Assembly: GCA_028716845.1 (NCBI GenBank)
Contig: JAQUPF010000019.1
Coordinates: 1 to 36,307 of the forward strand
Direction of reading: 5' to 3'
DNA length: 36,307 nucleotides
Source: a bacterium
GTDB taxonomy: Bacteria; Auribacterota; Tritonobacteria; UBA1439
A program made the translations under genes and the position numbers. Positions 2,115 through 17,870 of this stretch are shown here, in pieces (within the stretch, counting starts at the first letter, position 1; each line of letters opens with the position of its first letter). The notes under the pieces were generated by a model. The model did no database searches, was not told the DNA's origin, and saw only the letters and a list, made by a program, of their open reading frames with translations.

Positions 2115-2127
2115 CGGCGTTCCCCCG

Positions 2128-2622
2128 TCAGTCCCCGGCGCCCGCGGCGGGGGGGGCGGCCGGGGCTCCCGCGGCCGCGCGCCGGAGCTCCTCGTACATC
2201 CGCATGAGCGCGCCGTACTTCTCCACGATGTCGGCCTTCTCCCGCTCGAGCCGGTCGTGCGCGCGCTCGAGCGAGGCCATCTCCGCCGAGATCCGCTCGA
2301 GCGACCGGCCGCATTCCGCCGCCCGGACGTCGAGCTCGGCGGCCCGCTCCTCCGCCCCGGCGAGGCGGGCGCGCATCTCCGCGTTCGCCCCGCGGAGCTC
2401 CCGCAACCGCCCCTCGGCCTCGGCGAGGTCGCTCGACGCCTTTCCGACGAGGGCCTCGAGCGAGGCCCGCTCGGCCGCCACCCGCTCCCCCTCCCGCTCG
2501 AGCACGGCGACCCGCTCCTCGAGGGCCAGCTTCCGGCGGGCGAGCGTCTCGAAGCTCCCCCTCGTCACCATGCACCCGCAGAGCAGGAGCGCGGGGAGCA
2601 CCACCGCCGAGATGCGCATCAT
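2128..2622 (-). CDS. Coiled-coil lipoprotein of unknown function
   Basis: A 164-residue protein with a short hydrophobic N-terminus ending in LLLCGC, a plausible lipobox with the final Cys lipidated. Most of the rest is a long charged heptad-like coiled coil rich in Glu, Arg, Ala and Leu, ending in an Ala-Pro-rich tail. I chose the ATG at 2622 because GGAGGAGGG lies about 4 bases upstream and the signal peptide then starts the protein; the next ATG (2619) is equally possible, while an upstream ATG would add 17 residues without a ribosome site and spoil the signal. Only its shape is recognisable; it could be an envelope tether or spacer. It lies between thrC and a lipoprotein hydrolase on the same strand. 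Confidence 0.72.
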
Positions 2623-2669
2623 TTGTCCCTCCTCCGGGACGCCCATCGTAGCACAGACGCCCGGCCGCG

Positions 2670-4418: not shown

Positions 4419-4444
4419 CCCGTTGACCGTGGCGGCCCCTCCCC

Positions 4445-4918
4445 TCACCCGAGGCGGGCGAGGAGGGCGGCGACCCGCTCGCCCATCCGCCTGCACTGCG
4501 CGTCCACCCGGCGGTCGGGGGCCTCTATGGAGACCCTGCCGTAGTGGTCCCCCTCCGGGTCCCCCTGCACCACCATCCCGTGGATGAGCATCGCCTCGAT
4601 GATGGCGAGGACGGTCGTCTCGTTGCCGCCGCCGATGTTCGCGGCCGAGGTGAACGCCGCCCCCGCCTTCCCGTCGAGGGCCCCGTGGTGGGCCACGCTC
4701 TCGTCGAGGAGCTTCTTGACCTCCCACGCCATGGTCCCGTAGTAGGTCGGGGAGCCGATGATGATGCCGTCGTAGCCGGGGAGGTCGCCGGCGGCGACGT
4801 CCTCGACGCGCCTGAGGTCCGCCTCGGCGCCGCCCGCCCGCACCCCCTCCGCGACGGACCGCGCCATCTTCTCCGTGTTGCCGGTGCGCGAATAGTACGC
4901 CACGAGAACCCTCGCCAT
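4445..4918 (-). CDS. Flavodoxin-fold protein (FMN-binding, WrbA/flavodoxin-like)
   Basis: A 157-residue protein with the N-terminal FMN-phosphate loop YYSRTGNTEKMA directly after the first beta strand, and the GSPTYYGTMAWEVKKLL segment typical of WrbA and multimeric flavodoxins. The length is typical of short flavodoxins. It should bind FMN non-covalently and act as a cytoplasmic electron carrier or NAD(P)H:quinone-type reductase; the sequence does not decide between these. It lies between the lipoprotein hydrolase (26 bases downstream) and the uracil-DNA glycosylase (28 bases upstream), all on the minus strand, so co-transcription is likely. Confidence 0.85.
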   Translation of the reverse strand: MARVLVAYYSRTGNTEKMARSVAEGVRAGGAEADLRRVEDVAAGDLPGYDGIIIGSPTYYGTMAWEVKKLLDESVAHHGALDGKAGAAFTSAANIGGGNETTVLAIIEAMLIHGMVVQGDPEGDHYGRVSIEAPDRRVDAQCRRMGERVAALLARLG

Positions 4919-4946
4919 GCCGCACCTCCGTTCCGGTCGCCGGGCC

Positions 4947-5621
4947 CTACGCGTCGCGGGGGGCGGCCCCCCCGATCCCCCGCTCGCGCAGGTGGTCCCG
5001 CAGCCGCTTGACGTGCTCCCACATCTCCTTCTTCTTCCGCGGATCGCGGAGGAGGAACGCCGGGTGGTAGAGCACCATGAACTGGACGCCGGGGTACTCC
5101 TCCATCGTGAAGAAGGCGCCGGCCTTCTCCTCCATCGTGAAATCGGACGGCACGCGGGCGATGTGCCTGAGGGCGACCGCCCCGAGGAGCAGGATGACCT
5201 TCGGCCGCATCAGGTCGATCTGCCTGTGGAGGAACGGCAGGCACGCCCTGACCTCCTCCGCCTGGGGGGCGCGGTCCTCCGCCGTGCCGTCCTCCCGGAC
5301 CGTCACCGGCATGCACTTGACGACGTTCGAGATGAGCATGTCCTGGTCGGAGTCGAGGCCGATCGAGGCGAAGATCCTGTCCAGCATCTCGCCCGCGCGA
5401 CCCACGAACGCCCGGCCGGTCCTGTCCTCGTTCTCGCCCGGCCGCTCGCTGATGACCATGATCCGGGAGGAGGGGTTGCCGCGGTCCACCACGATCCGGT
5501 TCCGGTGCCGGTGGAGGTCGCACGCCCGGCAGTCGTACCCCTCGAGAAGCCGCTTGAACTCGTCGTAGGAATCGGCCTCGAGGATCCGGTTCCTTTCGCT
5601 GTCGAAAAGGTCGAACTGCAT
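4947..5621 (-). CDS. Type-4 uracil-DNA glycosylase (iron-sulphur)
   Basis: A 224-residue enzyme that excises uracil from DNA. The four cysteines that bind the 4Fe-4S cluster of family 4/5 enzymes are at C31, C34, C103 and C127. Motif A is SERPGENEDRTGRAFVGRAG (residues 58-77), with Ser where most relatives have Gly at the first position, and the second active-site motif is YHPA with H186. The N-terminal MQFDLFDS extension is common in PVC-type and other anaerobic lineages. There is an internal 10-residue repeat (FTMEE at 161-165 and again at 171-175) caused by a duplicated 15-base word. It heads the minus-strand run down to thrC and has its own promoter. Confidence 0.92.
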   Translation of the reverse strand: MQFDLFDSERNRILEADSYDEFKRLLEGYDCRACDLHRHRNRIVVDRGNPSSRIMVISERPGENEDRTGRAFVGRAGEMLDRIFASIGLDSDQDMLISNVVKCMPVTVREDGTAEDRAPQAEEVRACLPFLHRQIDLMRPKVILLLGAVALRHIARVPSDFTMEEKAGAFFTMEEYPGVQFMVLYHPAFLLRDPRKKKEMWEHVKRLRDHLRERGIGGAAPRDA

Positions 5622-5657
5622 GGGCGCGATCGCCGCCTCCCCGTCCGACGCCCAACT

Positions 5658-5686
5658 ATTGTAGTATCGGCGCGGGCGCCCCGCAA
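5658..5686 (-). promoter_or_regulatory. Sigma-70 promoter for the uracil-DNA glycosylase run
   Basis: On the minus strand, TTGCGG (5686-5681) and TACAAT (5663-5658) are separated by 17 bp. The predicted start is about 30 bases upstream of the ATG at 5621, leaving room for the GGGGAGG ribosome site. Confidence 0.5.
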
Positions 5687-5710
5687 CGCAAATCCCCCCG
5701 CATGTCCCGC

Positions 5711-5755
5711 CAAATTAGAAATGTCCCCTTCTTAGCAAATTAGAAATGTCCCCTT
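5711..5755. repeat. Two direct copies of a 20-bp insertion-sequence end repeat
   Basis: CAAATTAGAAATGTCCCCTT occurs at 5711-5730 and again at 5736-5755, a 25-bp period. A/T-rich words of this type next to GTCCCC are, as I recall, found at the ends of ISNCY-type elements, and the C-terminal half of such a transposase lies about 160 bases away at 5915-6420. The pair probably marks the surviving terminus of that element. Confidence 0.6.
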
Positions 5756-5762
5756 GATGACT

Positions 5763-5793
5763 CCCTCTCCCCCCAGTGAATGGGGGGAGAGGG
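5763..5793. repeat. 12-bp perfect C/G-tract hairpin with purine-rich tail
   Basis: CCCTCTCCCCCC (5763-5774) pairs perfectly with GGGGGGAGAGGG (5782-5793) around a 7-base loop and is followed by a G/A-only tract to about 5819. This resembles the widespread intergenic 'ccctctccc...gggagaggg' REP/MITE-like repeats of many bacteria. The remaining part of this gap, 5820-5914, shows no gene. Confidence 0.55.
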
Positions 5794-5914
5794 GTGGGGT
5801 GAGGGGGGAGAGAAGAGATTGCCCCCCCTCCCCGAGACAGCCGCTGTGCGGAAAACGCGCGCGTCTTTATTGTTCATCGATTGCACCCACCGAGCATCCC
5901 TTCAATGGACGATC

Positions 5915-6420
5915 TCATCGTGGTGAGGCCACGAGCAAGGGCCTGACTTTGAACTGCCTGTAGGGATGATCGGGCGGCGGCTTGTAGGGTGTTCTCTGTG
6001 CTCTTCCCCGAGGGGGCTTCACGGTTTTCACCGGCATCCGCTGGAGTTCCGTATAGGCAACCTCCATCCTCCTGTAGACGATGTGCATGCTGCCATCGAG
6101 CCACTCCTGGACCGTCACCTTCTTCCGGGCGGGAGGCAGCACCCTGTTCTCTTTCCTGATCTGGAAGATCCGGTTGTTCCATCGCACCGTCCAGTCGTTA
6201 TCAACCACGCGCGTCTCCTCGAAACAGAAGATGCTTCGCAGATCCACCCCCTTCGGCACGGGGCGGTGCAGATCCACATCGTGGTGAGGGGCCACGGCAA
6301 ACCGCTCGTTGAGATCCTTCAGAAAGCCCCTCTCCAGAAACGCATTCCCCTCCTCCCTCGTCCGGATCCCCTCCAACCGCATCTCCTTCACCAGCCGGTC
6401 CTGATACACCCCGTGCTGCA
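5915..6420 (-). pseudogene. Truncated ISNCY-type transposase (C-terminal part only)
   Basis: About 165 codons remain, beginning in frame at LQHGVYQDRLVKEMRLEGI and ending in a Lys/Arg/Pro-rich tail. The segment HRPVPKGVDLRSIF followed by VDNDWTVRWNNRIFQI matches my memory of the C-terminal domain of ISNCY-family transposases. The whole N-terminal half, with the helix-turn-helix and the DDE catalytic residues, is missing: an in-frame TGA and then a genomic repeat copy lie immediately upstream, at about 6421-6425. It is therefore inactive. The element's presumed other terminus is the pair of 20-bp repeats at 5711-5755. The deletion or insertion junction falls exactly at the edge of the dispersed repeat at 6425, which suggests recombination at that repeat. 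Confidence 0.75.
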
Positions 6421-6424
6421 GTCA

Positions 6425-6490
6425 GATCCGCGAAAATCCGCGTGAATCCGCGGCGAAAACTCAATAGCTGGGTGAATCCGCGGTGGATTG
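6425..6490. repeat. Dispersed ATCCGCG repeat, copy A (right arm only)
   Basis: Three tandem ATCCGCG words between 6426 and 6452, then GAATCCGCGGTGGATTG ending at 6490. The last 16 bases (AATCCGCGGTGGATTG) are identical to the right end of copy B. The left, inverted arm present in copies B, C and D is absent here, where the transposase remnant begins. Confidence 0.6.
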
Positions 6491-6524
6491 ATTCTTTGTC
6501 GCTTGCCGGCGGGCGGCACGGATG

Positions 6525-6553
6525 TGGACGGGGCGCGCCGGGTTCCCTATAAT
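6525..6553 (+). promoter_or_regulatory. Sigma-70 promoter for the nuclease-fold gene
   Basis: TGGACG (6525-6530), 17-bp spacer, consensus TATAAT (6548-6553). The ATG at 6575 is 21 bases beyond the -10, giving a leader of about 15 bases without a clear Shine-Dalgarno sequence. Confidence 0.5.
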
Positions 6554-6574
6554 GAGCAGGGGCATTCGAGCACC

Positions 6575-7306
6575 ATGAACGCGAAGGGACGCGCAATCCT
6601 TGCAGCCATCCTCGCCGCCGCCTCGGCGCCCGCCGCGGCGGAGGTCATCATCCTCAGGAGCGGCGAGCGGCTGGAGGGCGGCCTCCTCGTCTTCCGGAAC
6701 CGGGGGATCGTTCTCAGGAAGGCGGAGGGGGAGCCGGGCCGCTACCTCGACTACGAGGAGATCAGCCGGATCACCACGAAGGACGGGCGGCTCTGGTACC
6801 TCATGCCGCGCGGCGCCCACCCGACGCCGCAGCCCGCCTCCCGCCACTTCCCCCTCGCGCGGGTGATCCTCCCGGCGCCGAAACGCGCCGCCCCCGTCCC
6901 GCAACTGCTCCTCCCCCCGGGCGAGGCGGTGGAGGTCTCCTGCGCCGGCGCGGCGGACTCGGTGACGATCGAGCTCGAGGGAGGCGGGCGGGTGCGCCTG
7001 CTCGGGGTCGCGCCCCCGGCGGCGGCGGACGGCCGGCGGGCGGCGCGGAAGGCGGCGGAGCATCTCGCCGGACTCGTCGCCGGGAGGACCGCCCGCCTCT
7101 ACCCCGGCCCCCAGGGCGCGGCCGCCGGCGACGCGGAGGCCTACGTCGTCGTCGACAACGCCCTCGTCAACGCCCGCCTGCTTGAGCACGGCCGGGCGCG
7201 CGTCGACGAGGAGGCGCCCGACCATCCGTACCGCGAGGCGTTCCTCTCCCTCGAAAAATTCGCCCGGACGCTCGGCCGCGGCGTCTGGGCGGACGCCCGC
7301 CCCTAG
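6575..7306 (+). CDS. Exported SNase-like (OB-fold) protein with an N-terminal small beta-barrel domain
   Basis: A 243-residue protein with a signal peptide likely cleaved after residue 22 (PAAA|EVII). Residues 23-75 follow the pattern IILRSGERLEGGLL...GIVLRK...DYEEISRI, a small beta-barrel motif often found in envelope proteins of PVC-like bacteria. Residues about 130-243 have the layout of a staphylococcal-nuclease domain: VRLLGVAPP, then AEAYVVVDNALVNARLLEHGRARV, then a helix and GRGVWA. The catalytic positions are degenerate: the usual DAPE motif reads VAPP, and the Arg of 'GRxLAYV' is lost (GDAEAYV). Binding rather than cleavage is therefore likely. The ATG at 6575 is chosen because it starts the signal peptide; an upstream in-frame start would overlap the promoter. 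Confidence 0.72.
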   Translation: MNAKGRAILAAILAAASAPAAAEVIILRSGERLEGGLLVFRNRGIVLRKAEGEPGRYLDYEEISRITTKDGRLWYLMPRGAHPTPQPASRHFPLARVILPAPKRAAPVPQLLLPPGEAVEVSCAGAADSVTIELEGGGRVRLLGVAPPAAADGRRAARKAAEHLAGLVAGRTARLYPGPQGAAAGDAEAYVVVDNALVNARLLEHGRARVDEEAPDHPYREAFLSLEKFARTLGRGVWADARP

Positions 7307-7338
7307 CCCCCCGCCCGAATCCGCAAGGAACACCTTTG

Positions 7339-7429
7339 CCGCGGATCTTCACGGATCGCTGACGGATATTCACGGATCATTCTCCAGCGGCATCAGTGGA
7401 GATCCGTACGGATCCGTGGAAATCCGCGG
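7339..7429. repeat. Dispersed GCGGAT/ATCCGC inverted repeat, copy B
   Basis: Left arm CCGCGGATCTTCACGGATC (7339-7357) and right arm GATCCGTGGAAATCCGCGG (7411-7429) are inverted with 17 of 19 positions complementary plus one G-U pair. Two further ACGGAT words lie between them. It fills most of the gap between the nuclease-fold gene and the kinase gene (7307-7550), just before the kinase promoter. Confidence 0.7.
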
Positions 7430-7474
7430 TGGATTGCGGCATTGATTATTCGACGTTTGCGGGCGAGTTCGCGG

Positions 7475-7502
7475 TTGACAGAAACCGGTCTACGGCTACA
7501 AT
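7475..7502 (+). promoter_or_regulatory. Strong sigma-70 promoter for the kinase gene
   Basis: Consensus TTGACA (7475-7480), 16-bp spacer, TACAAT (7497-7502). The start codon is at 7551. Confidence 0.65.
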
Positions 7503-7550
7503 GGGGGCGCACGATCCGCCGCGCGGAGGCGGTCCGGGAGACCGAAACCG

Positions 7551-8615
7551 ATGGAGAACATGCGCGCGAACGCCGAACGGGTTTACGAGCAGGAAGAGCG
7601 GAAGCACATCCCCAGGATGGTCATCCAGAACGTCCTCGACTGGAACATCGCCCACGGGGTCGACACGATCCTTGGGCTGAACAGGCGCGTCGGGGACGGC
7701 ACCTTCCCCGAGCTGGTGCGCGACGGCGACGAGGAGTACCACCGGAACGTCACCCGCGCCGCCGAGGAGGTCATCCGCCACCGCGGGCGGATCCGGATCG
7801 TCATCATCGCCGGCCCCTCCTCCTCGGGGAAGACGACGACGACGATCAAGCTCAACGAGCGCCTCAAGAAGGAGGGGATGAGCATCGTCCCCATCAACCT
7901 CGACAACTACTTCTTCGACCTCGAGAAGCACCCGAAGGACGAGTTCGGCGACTACGATTTCGAGGTCCCCGAGGCGCTCGACCTCGCCCTCATCAACCGG
8001 CACCTCCTCGACCTCATCGAGGGAAGGACCATCCAGGTCCCGCGCTACAACTTCAAGACGGGCCTCCGGGAGGAGGAGACCGACCCGCTCCGGCTCGAGC
8101 GAAACCAGATCCTCCTCATCGACAGCCTCCACGGTCTCTACGAGGCGATGACGGAGAGCGTCCCGCGGGAGATGAAGTTCCGCCTCTACATCGAGACGCT
8201 GAGCCAGATCCGGGACGGGGAGGGGAACTGGGTCCGCTGGACCGACATCCGCCTCCTGCGCCGCATGGTCAGGGACAGCTGGCACCGGAGCTACGACCCG
8301 GTCCGCACCATCGGCCACTGGCACTACGTCCGGAAGAGCGAGATGCGCCATATCGTCCCCTTCATCACGAACGTGGACTTCGTCCTGAACGGCGCGCTCC
8401 CGTACGAGCTGCCGGTCCACAAGAAGTACATGTTCCCGTTCTTCGCGAAGGCGATCGAGGAGTACGGGAACGACCCGCGGCGCGAGGACGCCTCCATCAG
8501 GGCGTCGCGCGTGCAGAAGCTCCTGAGCGAGGTCCGGGTCCTCGAGGACGATTCCTGCATCCCGGGGACCTCGCTCCTCAGGGAGTTCATCGGGGGGAGC
8601 ACGTACCGGTACTGA
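7551..8615 (+). CDS. Uridine kinase / phosphoribulokinase-family nucleoside kinase
   Basis: A 354-residue cytoplasmic P-loop kinase. The Walker A motif GPSSSGKTTTT is at residues 88-98 (K94), followed by LDNYF, the family's Asp-Asn-Tyr substrate-binding segment, and by LLIDSLHGLY, equivalent to the uridine kinase 'EGIF/LL' strand. An N-terminal helical domain of about 80 residues precedes the P-loop. This is the arrangement of the shorter part of the Udk-like kinases often annotated 'nucleoside kinase', in which an N-terminal TGS-like domain is sometimes present; here it is absent. It should phosphorylate a nucleoside, probably uridine or cytidine, with ATP or GTP, but the substrate is not proved. 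The ATG at 7551 is used; ATG 7560 is an alternative. It stands alone, with a promoter before it and another after it. Confidence 0.82.
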   Translation: MENMRANAERVYEQEERKHIPRMVIQNVLDWNIAHGVDTILGLNRRVGDGTFPELVRDGDEEYHRNVTRAAEEVIRHRGRIRIVIIAGPSSSGKTTTTIKLNERLKKEGMSIVPINLDNYFFDLEKHPKDEFGDYDFEVPEALDLALINRHLLDLIEGRTIQVPRYNFKTGLREEETDPLRLERNQILLIDSLHGLYEAMTESVPREMKFRLYIETLSQIRDGEGNWVRWTDIRLLRRMVRDSWHRSYDPVRTIGHWHYVRKSEMRHIVPFITNVDFVLNGALPYELPVHKKYMFPFFAKAIEEYGNDPRREDASIRASRVQKLLSEVRVLEDDSCIPGTSLLREFIGGSTYRY

Positions 8616-8636
8616 CGCCGGGACGAGCGATTGCGC

Positions 8637-8665
8637 TTGCCGGCGGCGGGGCGTTCGGCTATCAT
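8637..8665 (+). promoter_or_regulatory. Sigma-70 promoter for the Pal-like lipoprotein gene
   Basis: TTGCCG (8637-8642), 17-bp spacer, TATCAT (8660-8665). The downstream start at 8732 has an excellent GGAGGAGG ribosome site. Confidence 0.5.
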
Positions 8666-8731
8666 CGTTGTCGGCGGGATCGGAGGGCGCGCGCCTCCGC
8701 CGCCGACGGTCAAACCGGAGGAGGAAAGACG

Positions 8732-9274
8732 ATGGACAGGTTCAGGGTCGCCGCCGTGATGGCCGTGGCCGTGCTGGTCGCCGCAGCCGGCTGCGCGAAG
8801 CAGGCGAAGGTCACCATCCCGTCGCACGGGCGCGGCCTCCTCGGCGACGAGGGGCTCCTCGGCGACATCCCGCTCACCCAGATGCCCGAGGGCGCGTTCG
8901 TCGAGCCGGAGGATTACCCCGACCCGGTCGCCCGGGAGATCTTCAGGGACGTCCACTTCGACTACGACAAGTACGACATCAGGGCGAGCGAGCGCCCGAT
9001 CCTCGAGGGGATCGCGGTCTACCTGCGGGAGCACCCCCAGCTCATCATCAAGGTGGAGGGGCACTGCGACGAGCGCGGCTCGAACGAGTACAACCTCGCC
9101 CTCGGCGAGCGGCGGGCGCTCAGCATCCGGAGCTACCTCTCCAACCTCGGCGTCTCCGCGGAGAAGATCTACACGATCAGCTACGGCGAGGAGCGGCCGC
9201 TCTGCACGGAGAGCAACGAGGGCTGCTGGTCGCGGAACCGGCGGGGGCACTTCCTCCTCGGCGCGCCGCGCTGA
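8732..9274 (+). CDS. pal: Peptidoglycan-associated lipoprotein (Pal/OmpA C-terminal domain)
   Basis: A 180-residue lipoprotein with a signal peptide ending AVLVAAAGC (lipidated C21), a short linker and an OmpA-like peptidoglycan-binding domain from about residue 70. The HFDYDKYDIRASE start and the GHCDERGSNEYNLALGERRA motif contain the Asp and Arg residues that hold the diaminopimelate side chain of peptidoglycan in this family. Its length and layout match Pal of the Tol-Pal system, which links the outer membrane to the cell wall. The start has GGAGGAGGAAAG 5 bases upstream. TolA, TolB, TolQ and TolR are not in the window. A LysM lipoprotein follows 72 bases downstream and may play the part CpoB/YbgF plays elsewhere. 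Confidence 0.88.
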   Translation: MDRFRVAAVMAVAVLVAAAGCAKQAKVTIPSHGRGLLGDEGLLGDIPLTQMPEGAFVEPEDYPDPVAREIFRDVHFDYDKYDIRASERPILEGIAVYLREHPQLIIKVEGHCDERGSNEYNLALGERRALSIRSYLSNLGVSAEKIYTISYGEERPLCTESNEGCWSRNRRGHFLLGAPR

Positions 9275-9297
9275 CGGCCGCCGCACGCGAGCGACGC

Positions 9298-9330
9298 GCG
9301 AGGGCCCGGGCGGCATCCCCGGGCCTTCGC
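9298..9330 (+). terminator. GC-rich hairpin between the pal-like and LysM genes
   Basis: GCGAGGGCCCGGG pairs with CCCCGGGCCTTCGC around a short loop, with small bulges. No T-run follows, so it may be a weak terminator or an mRNA stabiliser rather than a full stop between the two genes. Confidence 0.4.
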
Positions 9331-9346
9331 ATGTCGGAAGGACCGC

Positions 9347-9892
9347 ATGAAATCACGCATCCTCCGGACGGTCGCCGCGGCGCTGCTCCTCCCCGCCTGC
9401 GCCTCCCCCGGCCGCCTCGCCGCCCAGACGGACGCCCTCCGCGCGCGGCAGGCGGCGATCATCGAGGAGATCTCCGCCCTCAAGGGGGAGGTCCGCGCCC
9501 TCCAGGCGGCCCGGGAGGCCCACGAGCGGAGATTTTCCGACGAGTCTGACGGCGCGGGCCGCGCCGTCTCCCGGATCGGGGATATCGAGCGGCGGCTCGC
9601 CGCCATCGAGCGGGACCTCGCCGGCCTGAGGACCGAGACGGAGCGGCGGATGCAGGCGGTCATCGAGGCGGTCAAGAGCGAGAACGCCCAGCTCCGCGCG
9701 GCGATCGAGAAGTCGCAGAAAACGGCGGTCGCCTCGGGGTGGGAGCACACGGTCGCCGCCGGCGAGACGCTCGCGGCGATCGCGAAGAAATACGAGGCCC
9801 GCCTCGGGGACATCGTCGAGGCGAACGACCTGAAGGACGCCGACCTGATCCGTCCCGGTCAGAAGCTCTTCATACCCCGCAGGGGGCGCTGA
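9347..9892 (+). CDS. Coiled-coil LysM lipoprotein
   Basis: A 181-residue protein. The N-terminal signal ends LLLPAC, with C18 as the likely lipidated Cys. Residues 25-120 form a heptad-rich coiled coil, including an ERRLAAIERDLAGLRTE segment. The C-terminal 45 residues are one LysM domain: HTVAAGETLAAIAKKY, then VEANDLKDADLIRPGQKLFIP. It should be anchored in a membrane by lipid and bind peptidoglycan GlcNAc through LysM, so it is a second wall tether beside the Pal-like protein. The ATG at 9347 follows GGAAGGA by a few bases. It ends 20 bases before the convergent HhH protein gene. Confidence 0.87.
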   Translation: MKSRILRTVAAALLLPACASPGRLAAQTDALRARQAAIIEEISALKGEVRALQAAREAHERRFSDESDGAGRAVSRIGDIERRLAAIERDLAGLRTETERRMQAVIEAVKSENAQLRAAIEKSQKTAVASGWEHTVAAGETLAAIAKKYEARLGDIVEANDLKDADLIRPGQKLFIPRRGR

Positions 9893-9894
9893 CC

Positions 9895-9912
9895 GCCCCG
9901 CCGGCACGGGGC
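9895..9912. terminator. Hairpin between convergent genes
   Basis: GCCCCG (9895-9900) and CGGGGC (9907-9912) form a perfect 6-bp stem exactly between the ends of the LysM gene and the opposing HhH gene. It has no T-run on either side. Confidence 0.35.
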
Positions 9913-10401
9913 CTACGAAATCTCCTCCTCGTCCTCCTCCGTCGCCGGCTCCCCTCCCGGCGCGGCGGCCGAATCGGCGGGCCCCCTGACCTCGATCAGG
10001 TGCTTGAAGATGCGGAACTTCTGCGGCCCCACCTCGGGCACCCTGGCGAGGTCCTCCGCCTCGGCGTACGGCCTGTGGGCGATGATCGCCCGGGCGGTCG
10101 GCTCGTCCACGAGGGGGAGGAGCATGAGCTCCTTCAGCTTCGCCGTGTTCGGATCGAGGCGGATTCCCTCGCCGACGCCGCTGTAGCTGTCCGTCCTCGT
10201 CGTCTTCTTCCGGCGGCGCCGCCTGGCGAGGAGGACCGGGGCCGCGCCCGCCTCCGTTCCGCTCGAAAGCGACTGCTCCATGAGGCCCCGCACCCCGAGC
10301 TCGGCCAGGCCCGGCGTCTGCCCGGCGGCCGAGTCCGCCGTGAGCGCAACGCACAGGGCCGCGACGAGCAGCGTCCCCGCGCACCCGGCAATCTTCTTCA
10401 T
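9913..10401 (-). CDS. Exported helix-hairpin-helix (ComEA-like) protein
   Basis: A 162-residue protein with a signal peptide (MKKIAGCAGTLLVAALC..., cleavage near ADSAAG), a low-complexity linker containing a basic patch (ARRRRRKK), and one helix-hairpin-helix domain of the ComEA type: LDPNTAKLKELMLLPLVDEPTARAII followed by DLARVPEVGPQKF. The tail is acidic (EEDEEEIS). ComEA proteins bind double-stranded DNA in the periplasm during uptake; here the first hairpin reads LPLVDEPTA rather than the usual LPGIGPKxA, so DNA binding by that hairpin is uncertain. ATG 10401 follows GGGAGG and begins the signal peptide; a longer reading would overlap the leader. No com pilus genes are in the window. Confidence 0.72.
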   Translation of the reverse strand: MKKIAGCAGTLLVAALCVALTADSAAGQTPGLAELGVRGLMEQSLSSGTEAGAAPVLLARRRRRKKTTRTDSYSGVGEGIRLDPNTAKLKELMLLPLVDEPTARAIIAHRPYAEAEDLARVPEVGPQKFRIFKHLIEVRGPADSAAAPGGEPATEEDEEEIS

Positions 10402-10445
10402 GTCGCACCTCCCCGCGCAACGCGTAGCGGAATCCATCATGGAAA

Positions 10446-10454
10446 ATTATATCA
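10446..10454 (-). promoter_or_regulatory. Extended -10 element for the exported HhH gene
   Basis: On the minus strand TGATATAATTTT, the same 12 bases as the -10 region of the transglycosylase gene at 169-180. The -35 is not clear. The predicted leader is about 38 bases, with GGGAGG before the ATG at 10401. Confidence 0.5.
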
Positions 10455-10507
10455 CATTCCCGGACGGAACAATACGACGGGCATCTCCGTTCCCGGAACG
10501 CACGGCC

Positions 10508-12922
10508 TCAACCCGCCCCCTTGTTCCGCACGGCGAAGGTCAGGCGTTCTCCCGGGGGAAGTTCGTACACCCTTCCGTCGTGGCCGATCTTCGCCGTCCG
10601 GATCTGGGATGTCCTCGAGGCGATGGTCATCGATTCCCCGTCCAGCATGAGATCAAACCAGTTCCCCCTGTATTTGATCTTCATGCCCAGCCTGGTCCGG
10701 TTCCCCGGCAGGCGCGGATTGAAACAGAGGACGTCATCCCTGAACTCCATGCCGGTAAAACATCTCTGCACGATGTCGACGGTCCCGGCCATGGCGCCGG
10801 TGTGGATGCCCTCGTGCGTGGTGCCGTCCTGGATGTCGGAGATGTCGCTCTCCAGCGCCCTGTTGAACAGTTCCCATGCCCCGGGCCGGTCCGACCTCGC
10901 GAGCACCCACGAATGCACCACATTGCCCAGCGTCGAGCCGTTGGAACACCGCTGCAGGTAATATTCGATGTTCTTCGGGATACTCAGGGGATGAAAATCG
11001 TATCCCATCCGCTCGAACAGCTCCCGCAGCTCCTCCGCGGAGAAAAGATAATACAGCATGAGGACGTCGGCCTGCTTTGAGACCTTGTAGCGGCTCACGC
11101 TGTCCCCCTCGGCCTCCAGGATCCGGTCGAGGCGGCGTATGTTTCCGTATTTCCGCCGATACCCCTCGAAGTCGAACTCGGCCAACCGGTCATACCCTTC
11201 AAACTGGCTTATGATCCCGTCGTCGTGGAAGACGACGCGCATCGTGCGGACGATATCCCGCCAGCGGTCGATTTCCGAATGATCGAGCCCGATCGTATCC
11301 AGCAGGTCGCTCCTTCTCCCTGCCTGTATGACATCGAGGGCCTTCATGGCCGTCCGCATCACCCACACGGCCATGACATTCGTGTAGGCATTGTTGTCGA
11401 CGCCCGGCCTGTCGGAGCCCGGATACCTGTCGTGATATTCATCAGGGCCCATGACGCCCAGTATTTCATGCCTGCCGAGTTCCTCGTTATACGTTGCGAT
11501 GCTTGAAAACAACCGCGCGATTTCAAGCATCATCTCGACGCCGTAGGTGGCCATGAATTCCTCATCGCCCGTCGCCTGGTAGTATTGCCATAGGTTATAC
11601 GCGATGGCCGCATTGACGTGACGCTGCAGATGGGTGTTGTCCGGCAGCCACCGTCCCGATTCGGGATTGAGATGGAGCTCTTGCGTCTCCTCCCTCCCGT
11701 TGCTTCCGCTCTGCCAGGGGAACATGGCCCCCCGGAAACCCGCTTCCCACGCGGCCGTTCGCGCCCTGTCAAGTCTTCGGTAACGGTAGAGCAGGAGCGA
11801 ACGGGTCAGGACGGGGATTCTCATGTTCAGATAGGGGAAGATGAACAACTCGTCCCAGAAGATATGGCCCCTGTATGCCTCGCCGTGCCAGCCGCGCGCG
11901 GGCACGCCCGTGTCGAGGTCGATGGAATTTCTCGATGCGGTTTGCAGGAGATGGAACACATGCAGGCGGAGTATCATCTGGGCGCGCTCATCGCCCCATA
12001 CCTGAATGTCGCACCGGTCCCACAGATGGCTCCACTGCTTCATGTGACCGGCCAGGAGTGCGTCGAAAGGGGCCGCCTGCCTGATGCCTTCCACGGCGTC
12101 GGTCACGGGCTCCGAGATGGCGAAATCCCTTGAGGTATGGATGGAGACAATCTTCTCGATTCTCACCGGCCGGCCCTTCACCGCCTCGACGAGGCAGTCC
12201 TGCGCAATGTATCCGGGCTCCTGCCGGATGTTCCTCGCCACATCCGCCTGTTCATCCCCGAAATACACACGGGTTCTCGCGGCCTCCGCCACGCGAATGC
12301 GGGATTGATTGGTCTCCACGAGCAGGTAGATTCCATCGTCGTTCGCCGGTCCGCTCCCCACGGGCGCGAGGTGCGCGCCGTTCAGCCGCCTGTAGCGCTC
12401 GACGCCGGCGTTGACGACCGTTCCATCCAGGGCGGAGTGTATCCGGATGCGCCCCGACCAATTCTCGGGCATGATCGTCATCTCGAGCGCCGCCAGGTGC
12501 ATCGCGGCCATGTGCACGAAACGCCGGAGCATGACGGTCGTCTCCCGGCTCCGCCCGTCCCTGAACCGAACGGTCCGAATGAGCACCCCCGCCTTCATGT
12601 CGAGCTCCTGGCGGTAGGAAAGGATCTCCACGGACATCAGATTGAGCCAGTCGCCGTCTTCGGGCCTGAACTTCAGGAGGAGCCAATTCGGCATGTTGAC
12701 GAGGTCCTCGTTCTCAACCACCCGCCCCGCCACTTCCGTCTTCAGGCGGTTGTATCCGCCGGCGAGGTAGGTGCCGGGATAATGTACGTCGTCCGCCTCC
12801 GACTCCGGCGCCGCGCCCCGTGTGCAGAAAAAGCCGTTGCCGAGCGTGCAGAGCGCCTCCCGCAGGCCCTCTCGTGACGGCTCAAAGGCGTCGTACGCGA
12901 GGGTCCAGCCGTCATTGCCCAT
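10508..12922 (-). CDS. Glycoside hydrolase family 65 protein (trehalose phosphorylase-like; OtsB1 C-terminal equivalent)
   Basis: An 804-residue protein with the GH65 layout: N-terminal beta-sandwich, (alpha/alpha)6 barrel and C-terminal beta sheet. The HGEAYRGHIFWDELFIFPYL segment is diagnostic, and the general acid is E495 in MGPDEYHDRYPG. In GH65 phosphorylases the phosphate site contains HGS(S/T); here the segment is SNGSTL with N661 in place of His, so phosphorolysis should not be assumed. The expected reaction is reversible phosphorolysis (or hydrolysis) of an alpha-glucobiose, most likely trehalose given the neighbour. Its start overlaps the end of the beta-PGM/trehalose-phosphatase gene by 11 bases and is preceded by AAAGGAGG. 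Codon use and GC are lower than in surrounding genes. Confidence 0.85.
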   Translation of the reverse strand: MGNDGWTLAYDAFEPSREGLREALCTLGNGFFCTRGAAPESEADDVHYPGTYLAGGYNRLKTEVAGRVVENEDLVNMPNWLLLKFRPEDGDWLNLMSVEILSYRQELDMKAGVLIRTVRFRDGRSRETTVMLRRFVHMAAMHLAALEMTIMPENWSGRIRIHSALDGTVVNAGVERYRRLNGAHLAPVGSGPANDDGIYLLVETNQSRIRVAEAARTRVYFGDEQADVARNIRQEPGYIAQDCLVEAVKGRPVRIEKIVSIHTSRDFAISEPVTDAVEGIRQAAPFDALLAGHMKQWSHLWDRCDIQVWGDERAQMILRLHVFHLLQTASRNSIDLDTGVPARGWHGEAYRGHIFWDELFIFPYLNMRIPVLTRSLLLYRYRRLDRARTAAWEAGFRGAMFPWQSGSNGREETQELHLNPESGRWLPDNTHLQRHVNAAIAYNLWQYYQATGDEEFMATYGVEMMLEIARLFSSIATYNEELGRHEILGVMGPDEYHDRYPGSDRPGVDNNAYTNVMAVWVMRTAMKALDVIQAGRRSDLLDTIGLDHSEIDRWRDIVRTMRVVFHDDGIISQFEGYDRLAEFDFEGYRRKYGNIRRLDRILEAEGDSVSRYKVSKQADVLMLYYLFSAEELRELFERMGYDFHPLSIPKNIEYYLQRCSNGSTLGNVVHSWVLARSDRPGAWELFNRALESDISDIQDGTTHEGIHTGAMAGTVDIVQRCFTGMEFRDDVLCFNPRLPGNRTRLGMKIKYRGNWFDLMLDGESMTIASRTSQIRTAKIGHDGRVYELPPGERLTFAVRNKGAG

Positions 12923-14486
12923 GGCGGCCTCCTTTGCGGAACGAGGCGACCTTCAGCAGGAACTCCCCGACCTCGTCAGGATCATGCAGGCTGTACGTCG
13001 CCGCCGTCTCGTATGGTTCATCCCACACCACGATGCCGATGCCCCTTCCCCGCAGGGCCCGGAATGCGTCTTCATCCGTCACGTCATCGCCCATGTAGAT
13101 CGGCAGGACATCCGTGCCGTCCATCCGCAGGGCGCCCAGGAGGGAAAGGACGGCCTTCCCCTTGTGCCAGTCGATGGCCGGCTGGAGCTCGAATATCTTT
13201 TTCCCGCGCGCCTTCCTGAGTTCCGGACGGCCCGCCGAGACCCTGTCCACCGCCTCCTCGATGGATTCGACCTTTTCCTGCGCGACGAGCCGGTAATGGA
13301 CGGCGATCGCGAACCGCTTTCTCTCGACGAGCACGCCGGGGATGGAGCCGAGTTCCCGCAGCAGTTCCCCCTCCGCCTCGTCCAGCACCGGCAGGAACTC
13401 CGTCCCCACCTGATGCGCCACGTGCAGTCCTTCCGGGCCGACGACGTCGAAGCCGTGGCTCCCGGCATAGACGATGGAGTCTATCTTCACCTTGTCCCGC
13501 ACGTCCTCCAGATCGCGGCCGCTGATGATCCCCACCGTGCAGCAGCGTGAAAGTTCCACCACGGCCGCCCGCATCTCCTCCGACATGATCGCCCTGTCGG
13601 GGGTTTCGACGATGGGGGTGAGCGTTCCGTCATAGTCGAGAAAGACCGCAATGCGTTTCCCCCTCGCCGCGCCGGCGATCTCCTCGAAACGCTCCAGGGC
13701 GGAGGGCAGGGCATGCATCGCCTCGCCCCCGTCGGTGATTTCGATCTGCGAGAGATCCTCGACCGCCGTATCGGCCCCGTTTCCGAGCAGCGATTCCGCG
13801 TCGCCTTTCCGCGCCACGCCGATCACCAGGCCGAATGCGCCGGCACGGCCCGCCTGAACGCCCGCGATCGCATCCTCAACCACGATCGCACGTGCCGGTT
13901 TCACCCGCAATTGTCGCGCCGCCTCGAGGAAGATGTCCGGCGCGGGCTTGCCCTTGATGCCGATCGCCTCGGAATCGGTGCCGTCCACACTGGCATCAAA
14001 CAGATGGCGGAGATTCGCCGAATTGAGGATCATGGCGCAATTCCTGCTCGAGGATATGATCGCCGTCTTCAGGCCATGCCTTTTCGCGGCATGAATGAAA
14101 TCCACCGTCGAGGCATATACAGCAACGCCGCGCTCCCGGATGGAATGCAGGAAATACTCGTTCTTGAGCGTGCCCAGCCCCTGCACCGTCTCGGTGCCGG
14201 CCGGATCATCCGGCCGGCCCTCCGGCAGATCGATGCCCCTCGATCGGAGGAAACTCCGCACGCCGTCCACGCGCGGCTTTCCGTCCACATGGAGACGGTA
14301 ATCCCCGTCGATGTCGAACGGCCGGAAGGGGACGTTCCGGCGGGCGGCGTCCCTCGATAAAAACTCATCGAACATCCTCTTCCACGCCTCCGCATGGACG
14401 CCGGCGGTATCGGTCACCACCCCATCGAGGTCGAAGATGGCCGCGTCATACTTCTTCGCGGTGATCCGATGTCTTTCTTCCCGCAT
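12912..14486 (-). CDS. Fused beta-phosphoglucomutase-like HAD / trehalose-6-phosphate phosphatase
   Basis: A 524-residue protein with two HAD domains. The first (about residues 12-250) starts with FDLDGVV (D19 nucleophile, D21) and continues through IISSSRN, KGKPAPDIF and VVEDAIAGVQAG, the beta-phosphoglucomutase pattern. The second (about 275-515) starts with FLDYDGTLTPIV (D284, D286), then IISGRDLEDVRD, YAGSHGFDV and YMGDDVTDEDAF, the OtsB pattern. Together with the GH65 protein this is the domain order of mycobacterial OtsB1 in two pieces. Predicted chemistry: trehalose-6-P to trehalose plus phosphate, and interconversion of beta-glucose-1-P with glucose-6-P. The ATG is preceded by GGAAAGG about 15 bases away; a CATAAT at 14542-14537 may be its -10. 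Confidence 0.88.
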   Translation of the reverse strand: MREERHRITAKKYDAAIFDLDGVVTDTAGVHAEAWKRMFDEFLSRDAARRNVPFRPFDIDGDYRLHVDGKPRVDGVRSFLRSRGIDLPEGRPDDPAGTETVQGLGTLKNEYFLHSIRERGVAVYASTVDFIHAAKRHGLKTAIISSSRNCAMILNSANLRHLFDASVDGTDSEAIGIKGKPAPDIFLEAARQLRVKPARAIVVEDAIAGVQAGRAGAFGLVIGVARKGDAESLLGNGADTAVEDLSQIEITDGGEAMHALPSALERFEEIAGAARGKRIAVFLDYDGTLTPIVETPDRAIMSEEMRAAVVELSRCCTVGIISGRDLEDVRDKVKIDSIVYAGSHGFDVVGPEGLHVAHQVGTEFLPVLDEAEGELLRELGSIPGVLVERKRFAIAVHYRLVAQEKVESIEEAVDRVSAGRPELRKARGKKIFELQPAIDWHKGKAVLSLLGALRMDGTDVLPIYMGDDVTDEDAFRALRGRGIGIVVWDEPYETAATYSLHDPDEVGEFLLKVASFRKGGRHGQ

Positions 14487-14550
14487 CAGGATTCGACCTT
14501 TCCCCGGTCCGCGTTCGCCGGCATGGCGCGGGGCACATTATGAGCGGGGT

Positions 14551-14569
14551 GGCGGGCATGACGCCCGCC
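14551..14569 (-). terminator. 7-bp hairpin after the thioredoxin reductase gene
   Basis: GGCGGGC and GCCCGCC pair perfectly around a 5-base loop, one base past the trxB stop codon on the minus strand. No T-run follows. It also sits upstream of the trehalose-phosphatase gene. Confidence 0.35.
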
Positions 14570-14570
14570 G

Positions 14571-15500
14571 TCACCCCTCAAGGCCCGCGAGATGGCACTC
14601 CGCCTCGAGGAGCGCCGTCACGCCGTCGCCGACGGAGGAGGCGACCTGCCGGACGGAGTCCGCGCGGACGTCCCCCGCGGCGAAGACGCCGGGGACGGAC
14701 GTCCGCATGCGGATGTCCGTGACGACGTATCCGCGGTCGTCGAGGGCGACCGCCCCCTCCAGGAAGCCGGTGTTCGGCATCGTGCCGACGAAGACGAAGA
14801 CGCCGTCGCAGGGTATCTCCCTGCGACGGTCGCTCGCGACGTCCTCGGCGATGACCCCCTGCACCTTCTCCCCGCCGAGGATCTCCCGGACGACGGTGTT
14901 CCAGGCGAAGGCGATCTTCGGCTCCGCCGACGCCCGCCGCCGGAGGTGGCGGCCCGCCCGCAGGCTGTCCCGGCGGTGGACGACGGTGACGGAGGAGGCG
15001 AAGCGCGCGATGAAGAGCGCCTCCTCCACGGCGGTGTCGCCGCCGCCGACGACGACCACCCGGCCGCCGGCGAAGAGCGGGCCGTCGCACGTGCCGCAGT
15101 ACGAGACGCCGCGGCCGGCGAGCCGCTCCTCGCCCGGCACGCCGATCCTCCGGTACGAGGCCCCCGTCGCGACGATGACCGCGCGGGCGCGGCGCTCGCC
15201 GGCCGCCGTCCGGAGGAGGATCGACCGCCCCTCGGGGACGAGGCCGGTGACGGCCTCCTCGGCGATCCGCAGGCCGAACGCCCGCGCCTGCTCCTCCATC
15301 CGCCGGGCGAGCTCCATCCCGGCAAGCGGCTCGGGGAAACCGGGGTAGTTCGCGACCTCCGCGGTGACGACGATCTGCCCGCCCGCCATCCCCTTCTCGA
15401 GGAGGAGGCAGTCGAGGCCGTCGCGGGCGGCGTAGATGCCCGCCGCGAGGCCGGCGGGCCCGCCACCGACGATGATGAGTTCGTGGATTTCGTCCGTCAT
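14571..15500 (-). CDS. trxB: Thioredoxin reductase (NADPH)
   Basis: A 309-residue flavoprotein of the low-molecular-weight type. The FAD-binding GGGPAGLAAGIYAARDG motif is at the N-terminus, the redox-active disulphide is C135-G-T-C138 followed by DG, the NADPH-binding VVVVGGGDTAVEEALF lies after it, and the C-terminal GVFAAGDVRADSVRQVASSVGDG closes the FAD site. It transfers electrons from NADPH to thioredoxin in the cytoplasm. The family usually has CATC; CGTC is a tolerated variant. No thioredoxin gene is adjacent. ATG 15500 lies 9 bases after a TATAAT box, so its mRNA should be leaderless or nearly so, and no Shine-Dalgarno sequence is seen. Confidence 0.93.
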   Translation of the reverse strand: MTDEIHELIIVGGGPAGLAAGIYAARDGLDCLLLEKGMAGGQIVVTAEVANYPGFPEPLAGMELARRMEEQARAFGLRIAEEAVTGLVPEGRSILLRTAAGERRARAVIVATGASYRRIGVPGEERLAGRGVSYCGTCDGPLFAGGRVVVVGGGDTAVEEALFIARFASSVTVVHRRDSLRAGRHLRRRASAEPKIAFAWNTVVREILGGEKVQGVIAEDVASDRRREIPCDGVFVFVGTMPNTGFLEGAVALDDRGYVVTDIRMRTSVPGVFAAGDVRADSVRQVASSVGDGVTALLEAECHLAGLEG

Positions 15501-15509
15501 GCGCCGGTG

Positions 15510-15539
15510 ATTATAGCCCGCGCGCGCGGCGGCGGGCAA
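15510..15539 (-). promoter_or_regulatory. Sigma-70 promoter for trxB, very close to the start codon
   Basis: TTGCCC (15539-15534), 18-bp spacer, consensus TATAAT (15515-15510). Only 9 bases separate the -10 from the ATG at 15500. Confidence 0.55.
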
Positions 15540-15589
15540 GCCGAACCGAGGCCGGAGGAATACCGGGGACGCTCACGCCATCCCCCGGA

Positions 15590-15618
15590 TTGACCGGCGC
15601 GCGGGCCGCTGGTATAGT
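15590..15618 (+). promoter_or_regulatory. Sigma-70 promoter for the phosphatidylcholine synthase gene
   Basis: TTGACC (15590-15595), 17-bp spacer, TATAGT (15613-15618). Eight bases separate the -10 from the ATG at 15627, so the transcript should start at or just before the start codon. Confidence 0.6.
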
Positions 15619-15626
15619 CCTGCCCG

Positions 15627-16331
15627 ATGGAACGTCGGAAGGCGATCGCCTGGGCGGTCCACGCCTACACGGCGCTCGGCGCCGCCGCGGGCCTCCTCGC
15701 CCTCCACGCCTTCCTGGACGGGAGCGCGCGGCGGGCGTTCGGCCTCCTCGCCGCGGCGCTCCTCATCGACTCGACGGACGGGGCGCTCGCCCGCCGGTTC
15801 CGCGTCGCCGAGGTCCTCCCCCGGTTCGACGGCAGGCGGCTCGACGACATCGTCGACTACTGCGCCTACGTCTTCGTCCCGGCGGTCATCCTCGCCGCCG
15901 GCGGCCTCCTGCCCGACGGCGCGTGGGGATGGGCCTGCGTCCCCGCCCTCGCGAGCGCGTACGGCTTCTGCCGGGAGGACGCCAAGACCGCCGACGGCTT
16001 CTTCACCGGCTTCCCGAGCTATTGGAACATCGTCGTCCTCCACCTCTGGCTCCTCCGCTGGCCGGCGGCCGTCAACCTCGCCGTGGTCCTCCTCCTCTCC
16101 GCCCTCGTTTTCTGGCCGGTTCGCTACATCGACCCGTTCAAGACGGTCCCGCTCCGCCGGCTCACCGTCCCGCTCACGATCGCATGGGCCGCCGCGGGGA
16201 TCGTCCTCATCGCCACGATGCGGCGGCCGAACCCGCTCCTCCTCCGCGCCTCGCTCCTCTACTGCGCGTACTACCTCATCGCGTCGTTCGGGATCCACTT
16301 CGGCGGGGCGGGTCGCGCCGGCGCGCGGTGA
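15627..16331 (+). CDS. pcs: Phosphatidylcholine synthase (CDP-alcohol phosphatidyltransferase, Pcs type)
   Basis: A 234-residue integral membrane protein. The CDP-alcohol phosphotransferase signature is complete: D51-G-x-x-A55-R56, then G69-x3-D73-x3-D77. The 12-residue gap between AR and G, and the segment RVAEVLPRFDGRRLDDIVDY, are characteristic of Pcs, which joins free choline to CDP-diacylglycerol and releases CMP. Further hydrophobic segments follow to the C-terminus, consistent with several membrane helices. A related phosphatidylserine or other head-group activity cannot be excluded from sequence alone. It converges on a CHT1-like choline symporter with 12 bases between stop codons, which strongly supports choline as substrate. 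The mRNA appears leaderless. Confidence 0.87.
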   Translation: MERRKAIAWAVHAYTALGAAAGLLALHAFLDGSARRAFGLLAAALLIDSTDGALARRFRVAEVLPRFDGRRLDDIVDYCAYVFVPAVILAAGGLLPDGAWGWACVPALASAYGFCREDAKTADGFFTGFPSYWNIVVLHLWLLRWPAAVNLAVVLLLSALVFWPVRYIDPFKTVPLRRLTVPLTIAWAAAGIVLIATMRRPNPLLLRASLLYCAYYLIASFGIHFGGAGRAGAR

Positions 16332-16343
16332 CGGGGCGGCGGT

Positions 16344-17870
16344 TCAGGCCGCCGCGCTCCCGAGGGGACGCGGGGGAAAGCGGCGGGCGGTGAGGCGGGA
16401 GACGACGACGATCGCCGCGAGGCCGCACAGCATCGCGAGCGTCTTGAACGGGAAGAGCGTCCCCGTCTCCGGCTCCCACCACGGGTACGGGATGAGCCGG
16501 GGGATGCCGAGGAGCGGGTCGCCGCCCCCGAAGCGGAGCGACGCAGAGACGGCGATGCCGGCGACGGCGCCGGGCGTGTTGGCGCGCCGCATGAAGAGCG
16601 CCGCCACGAGCTGCGGGAAGAGGATGACGTACACCGCGTCGCTGCAGAGGTACCAGAGGGCCTGCACGCTCCGCACCCGCAGGGCGATGACGGTCGCCGC
16701 GACCCCGACGGCGACCGTGCAGAGCCGGAGGCAGACGCGGAGCGAGCGGTCGCCGGCGCGCGGGCGGATGATCCCGCGGTACCAGTTCCAGGTGAACATC
16801 GACGAGGCCGAGAGGACCGACGAGTCCACGGACGACATGACCGCCGCGGCGACCGCGCCGAGGCCGAGCATGCCGACCCAGTACGGCGTGCAGTAGCGCA
16901 GGACGTAGGGGAGGATCATGGCCGGGTACTCCACGTCGAGGCCCAGCTCCCGCCACGGGACGACGCTGCCGATAACGCCGATGACGATCGGCGGCACGGC
17001 CATGAGCGCGCAGAGGAGGCCGGCCCAGATCGAGAAGCGGGCCGCGACGCGCTCGTTCCGCGCCGCGAGCACCCGCTGGAAGTAGACGTTCCAGGGGATG
17101 CCGCCGAGCATGAGGAGGAAGGTCCAGTCCCACCAGTTGAGGACGAGCGGCACCGTCCACGGCGGGTGCGCCGCGACGTCGCGGAGCGGCGGCAGGAACG
17201 AGGTGAGCGAGCCGCCCGCATCCCGGAACTGCGCCGCGACCGCGGCGAATCCCCCCGCCCGCGCCGCCGCGAACGGGATCGCCGCCAGGAGCCCCGCGAG
17301 GATGAAGGCGAGCTGGAGCACGTCCGTGTAGGCGACCGACCAGAGGCCGCCCACCGCCGTGTAGCCGACGGCCACGGCCGCGGAGATGACGATCGCGGTC
17401 GAGAGGTCGATGTTGAGGATGGTGCCGAACGTCGTCCCGAGGGCCGTGAGGATCGCCGCGCTCCAGAACACCTCCCCCGCGAGCGCCGGAAAGAAGAGCG
17501 CGCCCGCGACGCCTCTCCCGAACCGCCGCTCGAACGGGTCGATGAGCGTCGTGAACCCCATCCGCCGCATGGTGCGCGCGAAGAAGAGCCCGCCGAGGAT
17601 GAGGCTCGCGGCGTAGCAGAGGCCCGCCTGGGCCCCCCACGTCATCCCGTTGCGGTAGACGTTCTCCGCCGTGCCGTTCACGTAGCCGCCGCAGACCCAG
17701 GTGGCGGTCATCGTCAGGAGGGCGATCCAGAGCGGGATGTTCCTGCCGGCGAGGAGGAGGTCGGCGGGGGCGCCGGTGTCGCGCCGCTTCGGGAACCAGA
17801 TCCCGACGAAGAAGATGAGGGCGTAGAACGCCCCCATGCAGGCGAGGCCGCCCCAGTGGATTCCGGTCAT
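16344..17870 (-). CDS. CHT1-like sodium/choline symporter (SSF family)
   Basis: A 508-residue polytopic protein of the sodium:solute symporter family, most like the high-affinity choline transporter CHT1 (SLC5A7) of animals over its whole length. Shared blocks include TWVCGGYVNGTAE, SLILGGLFFA, GGIPWNVYFQRVL, GLGAVAAAVMSSVDSSVLSASSMF and LWYLCSD. The five aromatic residues that form the choline cage in human CHT1 (W62, Y91, W141, W254, W406) correspond here to W58, Y86, W136, W260 and W406. It should import choline with sodium across the inner membrane. Its gene faces the phosphatidylcholine synthase gene, and 55 bases separate it from yjjX upstream on the same strand, so it may end that long transcript or have its own promoter. 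Other quaternary-amine substrates are possible but less likely. Confidence 0.88.
   Translation of the reverse strand: MTGIHWGGLACMGAFYALIFFVGIWFPKRRDTGAPADLLLAGRNIPLWIALLTMTATWVCGGYVNGTAENVYRNGMTWGAQAGLCYAASLILGGLFFARTMRRMGFTTLIDPFERRFGRGVAGALFFPALAGEVFWSAAILTALGTTFGTILNIDLSTAIVISAAVAVGYTAVGGLWSVAYTDVLQLAFILAGLLAAIPFAAARAGGFAAVAAQFRDAGGSLTSFLPPLRDVAAHPPWTVPLVLNWWDWTFLLMLGGIPWNVYFQRVLAARNERVAARFSIWAGLLCALMAVPPIVIGVIGSVVPWRELGLDVEYPAMILPYVLRYCTPYWVGMLGLGAVAAAVMSSVDSSVLSASSMFTWNWYRGIIRPRAGDRSLRVCLRLCTVAVGVAATVIALRVRSVQALWYLCSDAVYVILFPQLVAALFMRRANTPGAVAGIAVSASLRFGGGDPLLGIPRLIPYPWWEPETGTLFPFKTLAMLCGLAAIVVVSRLTARRFPPRPLGSAAA

Follow-up and report, generated by a model that had tools for sequence, protein, structure and literature searches.

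Layout of the locus

The window, that is the whole stretch of DNA analysed here, is a contig of 36,307 nucleotides within a 2.68-Mb genome of Candidatus Auribacterota, an uncultured phylum of the PVC group. Among named genomes, the closest to it is a MAG of that phylum from Lac Pavin. Two open reading frames face each other in it, stop codon to stop codon, with 12 bases in between. Their limits and strands are those given by the first-pass annotation of this DNA. The features considered below are the following.

15590..15618, + strand: candidate sigma-70-like promoter, TTGACC-17-TATAGT with TG before the second hexamer (consensus match only)
15627..16331, + strand: predicted Pcs-type phosphatidylcholine synthase (CDP-alcohol phosphotransferase), 234 aa (NCBIfam, motif, clade, AlphaFold fold)
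15768..15857, + strand: CDP-alcohol phosphotransferase motif D48..DG..AR-x12-G...D...D77 in the synthase, DSTDGALARRFRVAEVLPRFDGRRLDDIVD
16332..16343, no strand: 12-base gap separating the convergent stop codons (coordinates of both reading frames)
16344..17870, - strand: predicted CHT1-type sodium:choline symporter of the SSF family, 508 aa (identity, cage and Na+-site residues, fold, clade)

The promoter candidate lies immediately upstream of the synthase gene; by consensus match only, two such sites occur in the region as compared to 0.1 expected. No terminator-like site was found in the 12-base gap.

Elsewhere in the window, an open reading frame at 12912-14486 (- strand) encodes a trehalose-phosphatase joined to a HAD domain of the beta-phosphoglucomutase type, and each part scores above its NCBIfam cut-off. 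It adjoins a GH65 family enzyme at 10508-12922, and the two together look like a trehalose or other disaccharide unit.

The symporter groups with CHT1

Pfam and NCBIfam assign the symporter to the sodium:solute symporter family and give no finer name. Over the aligned region, the protein is 52% identical to sfCHT and 46% identical to human CHT1. The first of these is a choline transporter of Salimicrobium flavidum that depends on Na+, is inhibited by HC-3 and has been solved with choline and with Na+ bound (9rws/9rwt; PMC13220886). A sequence search of the PDB returned sfCHT with E=1e-162 and human CHT1 with E=1e-113, as compared to E=7e-18 for the next SSF protein, vSGLT, showing that the likeness to CHT is not due to chance.

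It had been proposed from the sequence that all five aromatic residues caging choline in animal CHT1 are kept in this protein. Alignment to human CHT1 and sfCHT confirmed this. Residues W58, Y86, W136, W260 and W406 align with W62, Y91, W141, W254 and W406 of human CHT1 and with W99, Y126, W176, W298 and W445 of sfCHT, whose choline-cage residues are as named in PMC13220886. Among 82 aligned CHTs, W58, W260 and W406 are invariant, Y86 is replaced by F in four and W136 by C in one (L082). In the same alignment, E. coli PutP and PanF carry none of the five aromatics. The Na+-site residues A56, T57, V59 and Q186 are also kept, corresponding to A97, T98, V100 and Q226 of sfCHT. On the cytosolic path, R43, Q265 and R266 are conserved.

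The window symporter differs from sfCHT at two places. S307 of sfCHT is A269 here, as it is in several other CHTs, and one extra residue, G79, stands between W78 and A80, before the cage residue Y86. This insertion is found in the Auribacterota CHTs, which read WGAQA where sfCHT and human CHT1 read WAQA.

The best fold matches of the AlphaFold model of the symporter (pLDDT 86.4) are human CHT1 structures. In the tree of SSF proteins that the first-pass annotation had suggested as a check, the symporter falls in a CHT clade that includes human CHT1 and is well separated from PutP, PanF and the second SSF protein encoded by this genome. By analogy with sfCHT and human CHT1, for which Na+-coupled choline transport has been measured, this CHT1-type symporter probably couples transport of choline to Na+.

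The synthase has the hallmarks of Pcs

All five NCBIfam models for Pcs match the synthase, with 131-162 bits. The scores are below the curated cut-offs of every one of them (161.6 bits vs 440 for the best, 153.4 vs 300), so that an automatic pipeline relying on these models would not call a Pcs. Because each of the five is named for a particular lineage (Leg, Ps, Borr, Brdy, Agro), the low scores limit the equivalog label and not the family membership. The same five models match each of 20 diverse CHT-linked homologues. The synthase is not a PssA either by score, which is 33 bits for a cut-off of 107 with the pssA model, or by motif spacing, which is x12 rather than x8.

The motif published for Legionella Pcs, DGX2ARX8PX3GX3DX3D, places 12 residues between AR and G (PMC7867332). 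It is present exactly in the synthase (DGALARRFRVAEVLPRFDGRRLDDIVD), in agreement with the Pcs-type motif claimed at first reading. The AR-to-G spacing is 12 in 44 of 44 Pcs-type proteins examined, including the Legionella, Pseudomonas, Sinorhizobium and Halomonas references, and 8 in the nine other Auribacterota CDP-alcohol transferases where the full motif was found. D48, D51, D73 and D77 would be the metal-binding and catalytic aspartates. In a tree whose comparison CDP-alcohol transferases come from the same family of genomes as the window, the synthase groups with four reference Pcs (support 99/96) and is set apart from the PssA-type, PgsA-type and remaining enzymes. It was this placement, and not one with phosphatidylserine or inositol enzymes, that the Pcs assignment predicted. 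Within the Pcs clade, the references fall at two separate places.

The AlphaFold model of the synthase (pLDDT 94.6) has the CDP-alcohol phosphotransferase fold and is best matched by phosphatidylserine synthase 7pow (Z 18.5, rmsd 3.6 over 197 residues). No structure of a Pcs turned up among solved structures, and the PDB sequence search with the synthase gave no match.

The scores under the curated Pcs cut-offs and the phosphatidylserine synthase as nearest solved fold would also fit an enzyme that uses another alcohol (serine, ethanolamine, inositol or methylated ethanolamine) and whose product is not phosphatidylcholine. Moreover, some Pcs homologues may be without activity, as cautioned in PMC10434233. 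However, the x12 spacing is common to every Pcs and absent from the other family members examined, and the reference Pcs occupy two separate parts of the clade to which the synthase belongs. In addition, the genome has a PssA of its own (112 bits, above the curated cut-off), besides further members of the CDP-alcohol transferase family, and the partner transporter carries the choline cage. Use of another alcohol is, on this evidence, quite improbable.

The window synthase shares enzyme family and motif spacing with the Pcs of Sinorhizobium, Pseudomonas and Legionella, from which it differs in being ~30-38% identical to them over the matched part. By analogy with the Pcs of Sinorhizobium, Legionella and others, for which the reaction has been measured, this Pcs-type enzyme probably acts on choline and CDP-diacylglycerol.

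CHT and Pcs genes are recurrent neighbours

The neighbourhood survey suggested by the first-pass annotation was carried out by scanning one genome per species (84,980 species) for CHT, blind to Pcs. The best 80 loci, which are those nearest to the window, were taken, and Pcs was detected in their flanks using a profile built from Auribacterota Pcs. The link proved recurrent: Pcs was found in the flanks of 32 of the best 80 CHT loci, within ~0.5 kb at 29 of them and at ~1.7-3.5 kb at three (for L028, the distance was measured from the match start of the CHT scan). A PssA-like match in Jeotgalibacillus (E=7e-9) was not counted as Pcs. Considering whole genomes, 27 of 46 CHT-bearing ones have a true Pcs anywhere (E below 1e-60), well clear of the PssA-like matches near 1e-12.

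Among the best 80 CHT loci, linked pairs occur in Planctomycetota, Myxococcota, Pseudomonadota, Acidobacteriota, Bacteroidota, Balneolota and Auribacterota. Auribacterota and three Planctomycetaceae have the convergent order. The order is cht-to-pcs in Myxococcota, Pseudomonadota, Acidobacteriota and two further planctomycetes, whereas Bacteroidota, Balneolota and one planctomycete have divergent genes. The pcs-to-cht order also occurs, in an order-wide sample taken from the order of a Saprospiraceae MAG, making four relative orders overall. The convergent order had been called unusual. This holds in that other lineages are operon-like or divergent; it does not hold within the Auribacterota family, where convergence is the rule, or at Planctomycetaceae loci, three of four of which are convergent. 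On the CHT tree, gene order among the linked loci changes at least four times. That the genes stay adjacent while their orientation changes is an argument that the pair is under selection.

Co-occurrence of the two genes was also examined in genome samples chosen without regard to linkage, which agree with the survey. Six of 44 Auribacterota genomes have both genes; these six belong to a single family, and neither gene is found in the rest. Five of the six pairs are tail to tail; in the sixth (G021), the genes face each other ~11 kb apart. In G021 (L159, G021:C187, ~5600-16600), the cht-pcs interval holds two large proteins with beta-propellers, of 1413 and 850 aa, as well as an open reading frame with collagen repeats, and an aspartate kinase and a thioredoxin reductase lie outside the interval, as in the window.

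Since both genes are limited to one Auribacterota family, their co-occurrence there could be a single event, as would be expected if a chance adjacency had been kept by descent in one lineage. Against this explanation, the pair recurs in seven phyla and in four relative orders, and the CHT tree requires at least three to four changes of partner label, Pcs or betaine (see below), in addition to the gene-order changes. We therefore regard chance adjacency as extremely unlikely.

In 198 genomes from the order of the Saprospiraceae MAG, 21 have both genes, six Pcs only, two CHT only and 169 neither (Fisher P=6e-21, not corrected for kinship). The genes are within ~1.8 kb of each other in 11 of the 21, 12 kb apart in one and on different contigs in nine. 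One of the six genomes with Pcs only, G479, has a broken CHT adjoining an intact pcs (L154, 9538-10080); this 181-codon remnant is apparently a decayed symporter gene. One of the two genomes with CHT only has a betB-betA-cht row. A CHT at L149 (G443, 1598-7791) has neither Pcs nor betaine genes beside it and lies downstream of molybdenum-hydroxylase-type genes. Finally, in 246 Planctomycetota genomes, CHT is present in two and Pcs in three, and two have both.

Other fates of imported choline

Genes for betaine synthesis form a second class of CHT neighbours. At 21 of the best 80 CHT loci, betA, betB or gbsB lies within 8 kb, with zero overlap with the 32 Pcs loci. NCBIfam identifies a choline dehydrogenase above cut-off in five of five BetA proteins scanned, and a GbsB choline dehydrogenase in L041. 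The remaining 27 loci are assigned to neither class, and in some of them the sequence stops close to the gene. That one CHT clade adjoins two unrelated choline-using pathways points to choline as the common substrate.

The idea that Pcs and betaine genes strictly exclude each other was weighed but given up, because G425, from the Saprospiraceae order, carries pcs, cht and a betA-like dehydrogenase gene in a row on one strand (L146, 2131-6041). With 600.9 bits, this dehydrogenase falls slightly short of the subfamily cut-off for choline dehydrogenase, 605 bits.

The betaine-linked loci and the row in G425 would be expected if the symporter imported choline mainly as an osmoprotectant or nutrient, with Pcs as one consumer among several or as a neighbour by accident. 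However, no match to betA or cutC was found in the six Auribacterota family genomes, the window's genome included, and no choline kinase was above cut-off in any of them. The earlier statement that choline kinase and a methylation route are missing was made for the window only; for choline kinase above cut-off, it extends to the whole genome. With none of these three in the family, phosphatidylcholine is the best predicted fate of the choline. Furthermore, betaine genes within 8 kb are found at none of the 32 Pcs-linked CHT loci, and the CHT-Pcs adjacency outlasts changes of gene order. A mainly osmoprotective or nutritional role is therefore improbable.

A predicted choline-scavenging module

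The placement of the symporter, the placement of the synthase and their recurrent linkage support the reading, first made from this sequence alone, that the two genes make an uptake-and-use module. In such a module, the CHT1-type symporter would bring free choline into the cell on the Na+ gradient; the cage residues W58, Y86, W136, W260 and W406 would bind choline, and A56, T57, V59 and Q186 would bind Na+. The Pcs-type enzyme, acting at the membrane, would then convert choline and CDP-diacylglycerol into phosphatidylcholine and CMP in one step. Several points count against the module. Convergent genes cannot share a promoter; Pcs occurs without an intact CHT in six of the 198 genomes and CHT without Pcs in two; the Pcs scores are below cut-off and the nearest solved fold is that of phosphatidylserine synthase; ~11 kb separate the genes in G021; and phosphatidylcholine may also be formed by methylation through PmtA. 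As the pairing is found in at least seven phyla in differing arrangements, the two genes very probably form a genuine module for scavenging rather than lying together by chance. From these genomic comparisons, we infer with high confidence that the two genes serve to scavenge choline for phosphatidylcholine.

Import of choline feeding one-step synthesis of phosphatidylcholine is known from Brucella and Agrobacterium, with ChoXWV and Pcs (PMC8371380). Pcs, with supply by ChoXWV, is established (PMC8371380, PMC10434233), and even B. canis, whose ChoXWV does not work, supplies its Pcs (PMC8371380). In both systems an importer is coupled to Pcs, but ChoXWV is an ABC transporter whereas a single-gene Na+ symporter lies beside pcs here. 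The pairing is known uptake-plus-Pcs chemistry fed by a different importer class, each gene being from a known family.

The same transporter clade, the same cage and Na+-site residues and ~52% identity relate the window symporter to sfCHT. The genomic setting differs: by NCBIfam, the sfCHT gene adjoins betB, betA and a gene for a CudC-type choline regulator, whereas the window symporter gene adjoins pcs. Human CHT1 (SLC5A7) resembles the window symporter in its fold and in having every one of the five aromatics of the cage, but it supplies neuronal acetylcholine synthesis, whereas the predicted fate of choline here is a membrane lipid.

A bacterial CHT was characterised in 2026. In the text of the sfCHT paper, phosphatidylcholine appears a single time, in the title of a reference, and the word "operon" is absent (PMC13220886). 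No CHT is annotated beside pcs of Sinorhizobium, Pseudomonas or Legionella in the plasmid records examined. We found no paper describing the CHT-Pcs pairing in a literature search that covered subscription journals thinly, which is weak evidence of novelty.

CHT1 relatives beyond this locus

Given the recurrent pair of importer and synthase, such groups as Auribacterota, Planctomycetota, Saprospiraceae and Myxococcota are predicted to make phosphatidylcholine from choline that they scavenge. The pair could serve as a genomic marker for choline-dependent membranes, and its loci could supply single-gene CHT1 homologues for study. The loci include some from cultured organisms, namely Phaeodactylibacter xiamenensis, Aureispira sp. 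and Rhodohalobacter sulfatireducens. A broader reading, which we favour with some reserve, is that CHT1 relatives are dedicated choline suppliers for one-step phosphatidylcholine synthesis in at least seven phyla, that they swap Pcs and betaine partners, and that animal CHT1 is nearest to a Pcs-linked planctomycete branch.

Human CHT1 clusters with transporters from planctomycetes (L054, L059 and L023), most of which are Pcs-linked, with 98/94 support and 54% identity to L054, in a tree limited to the window's 80 closest CHT loci plus a single, long-branched animal sequence. This grouping may bear on the origin of animal CHT1.
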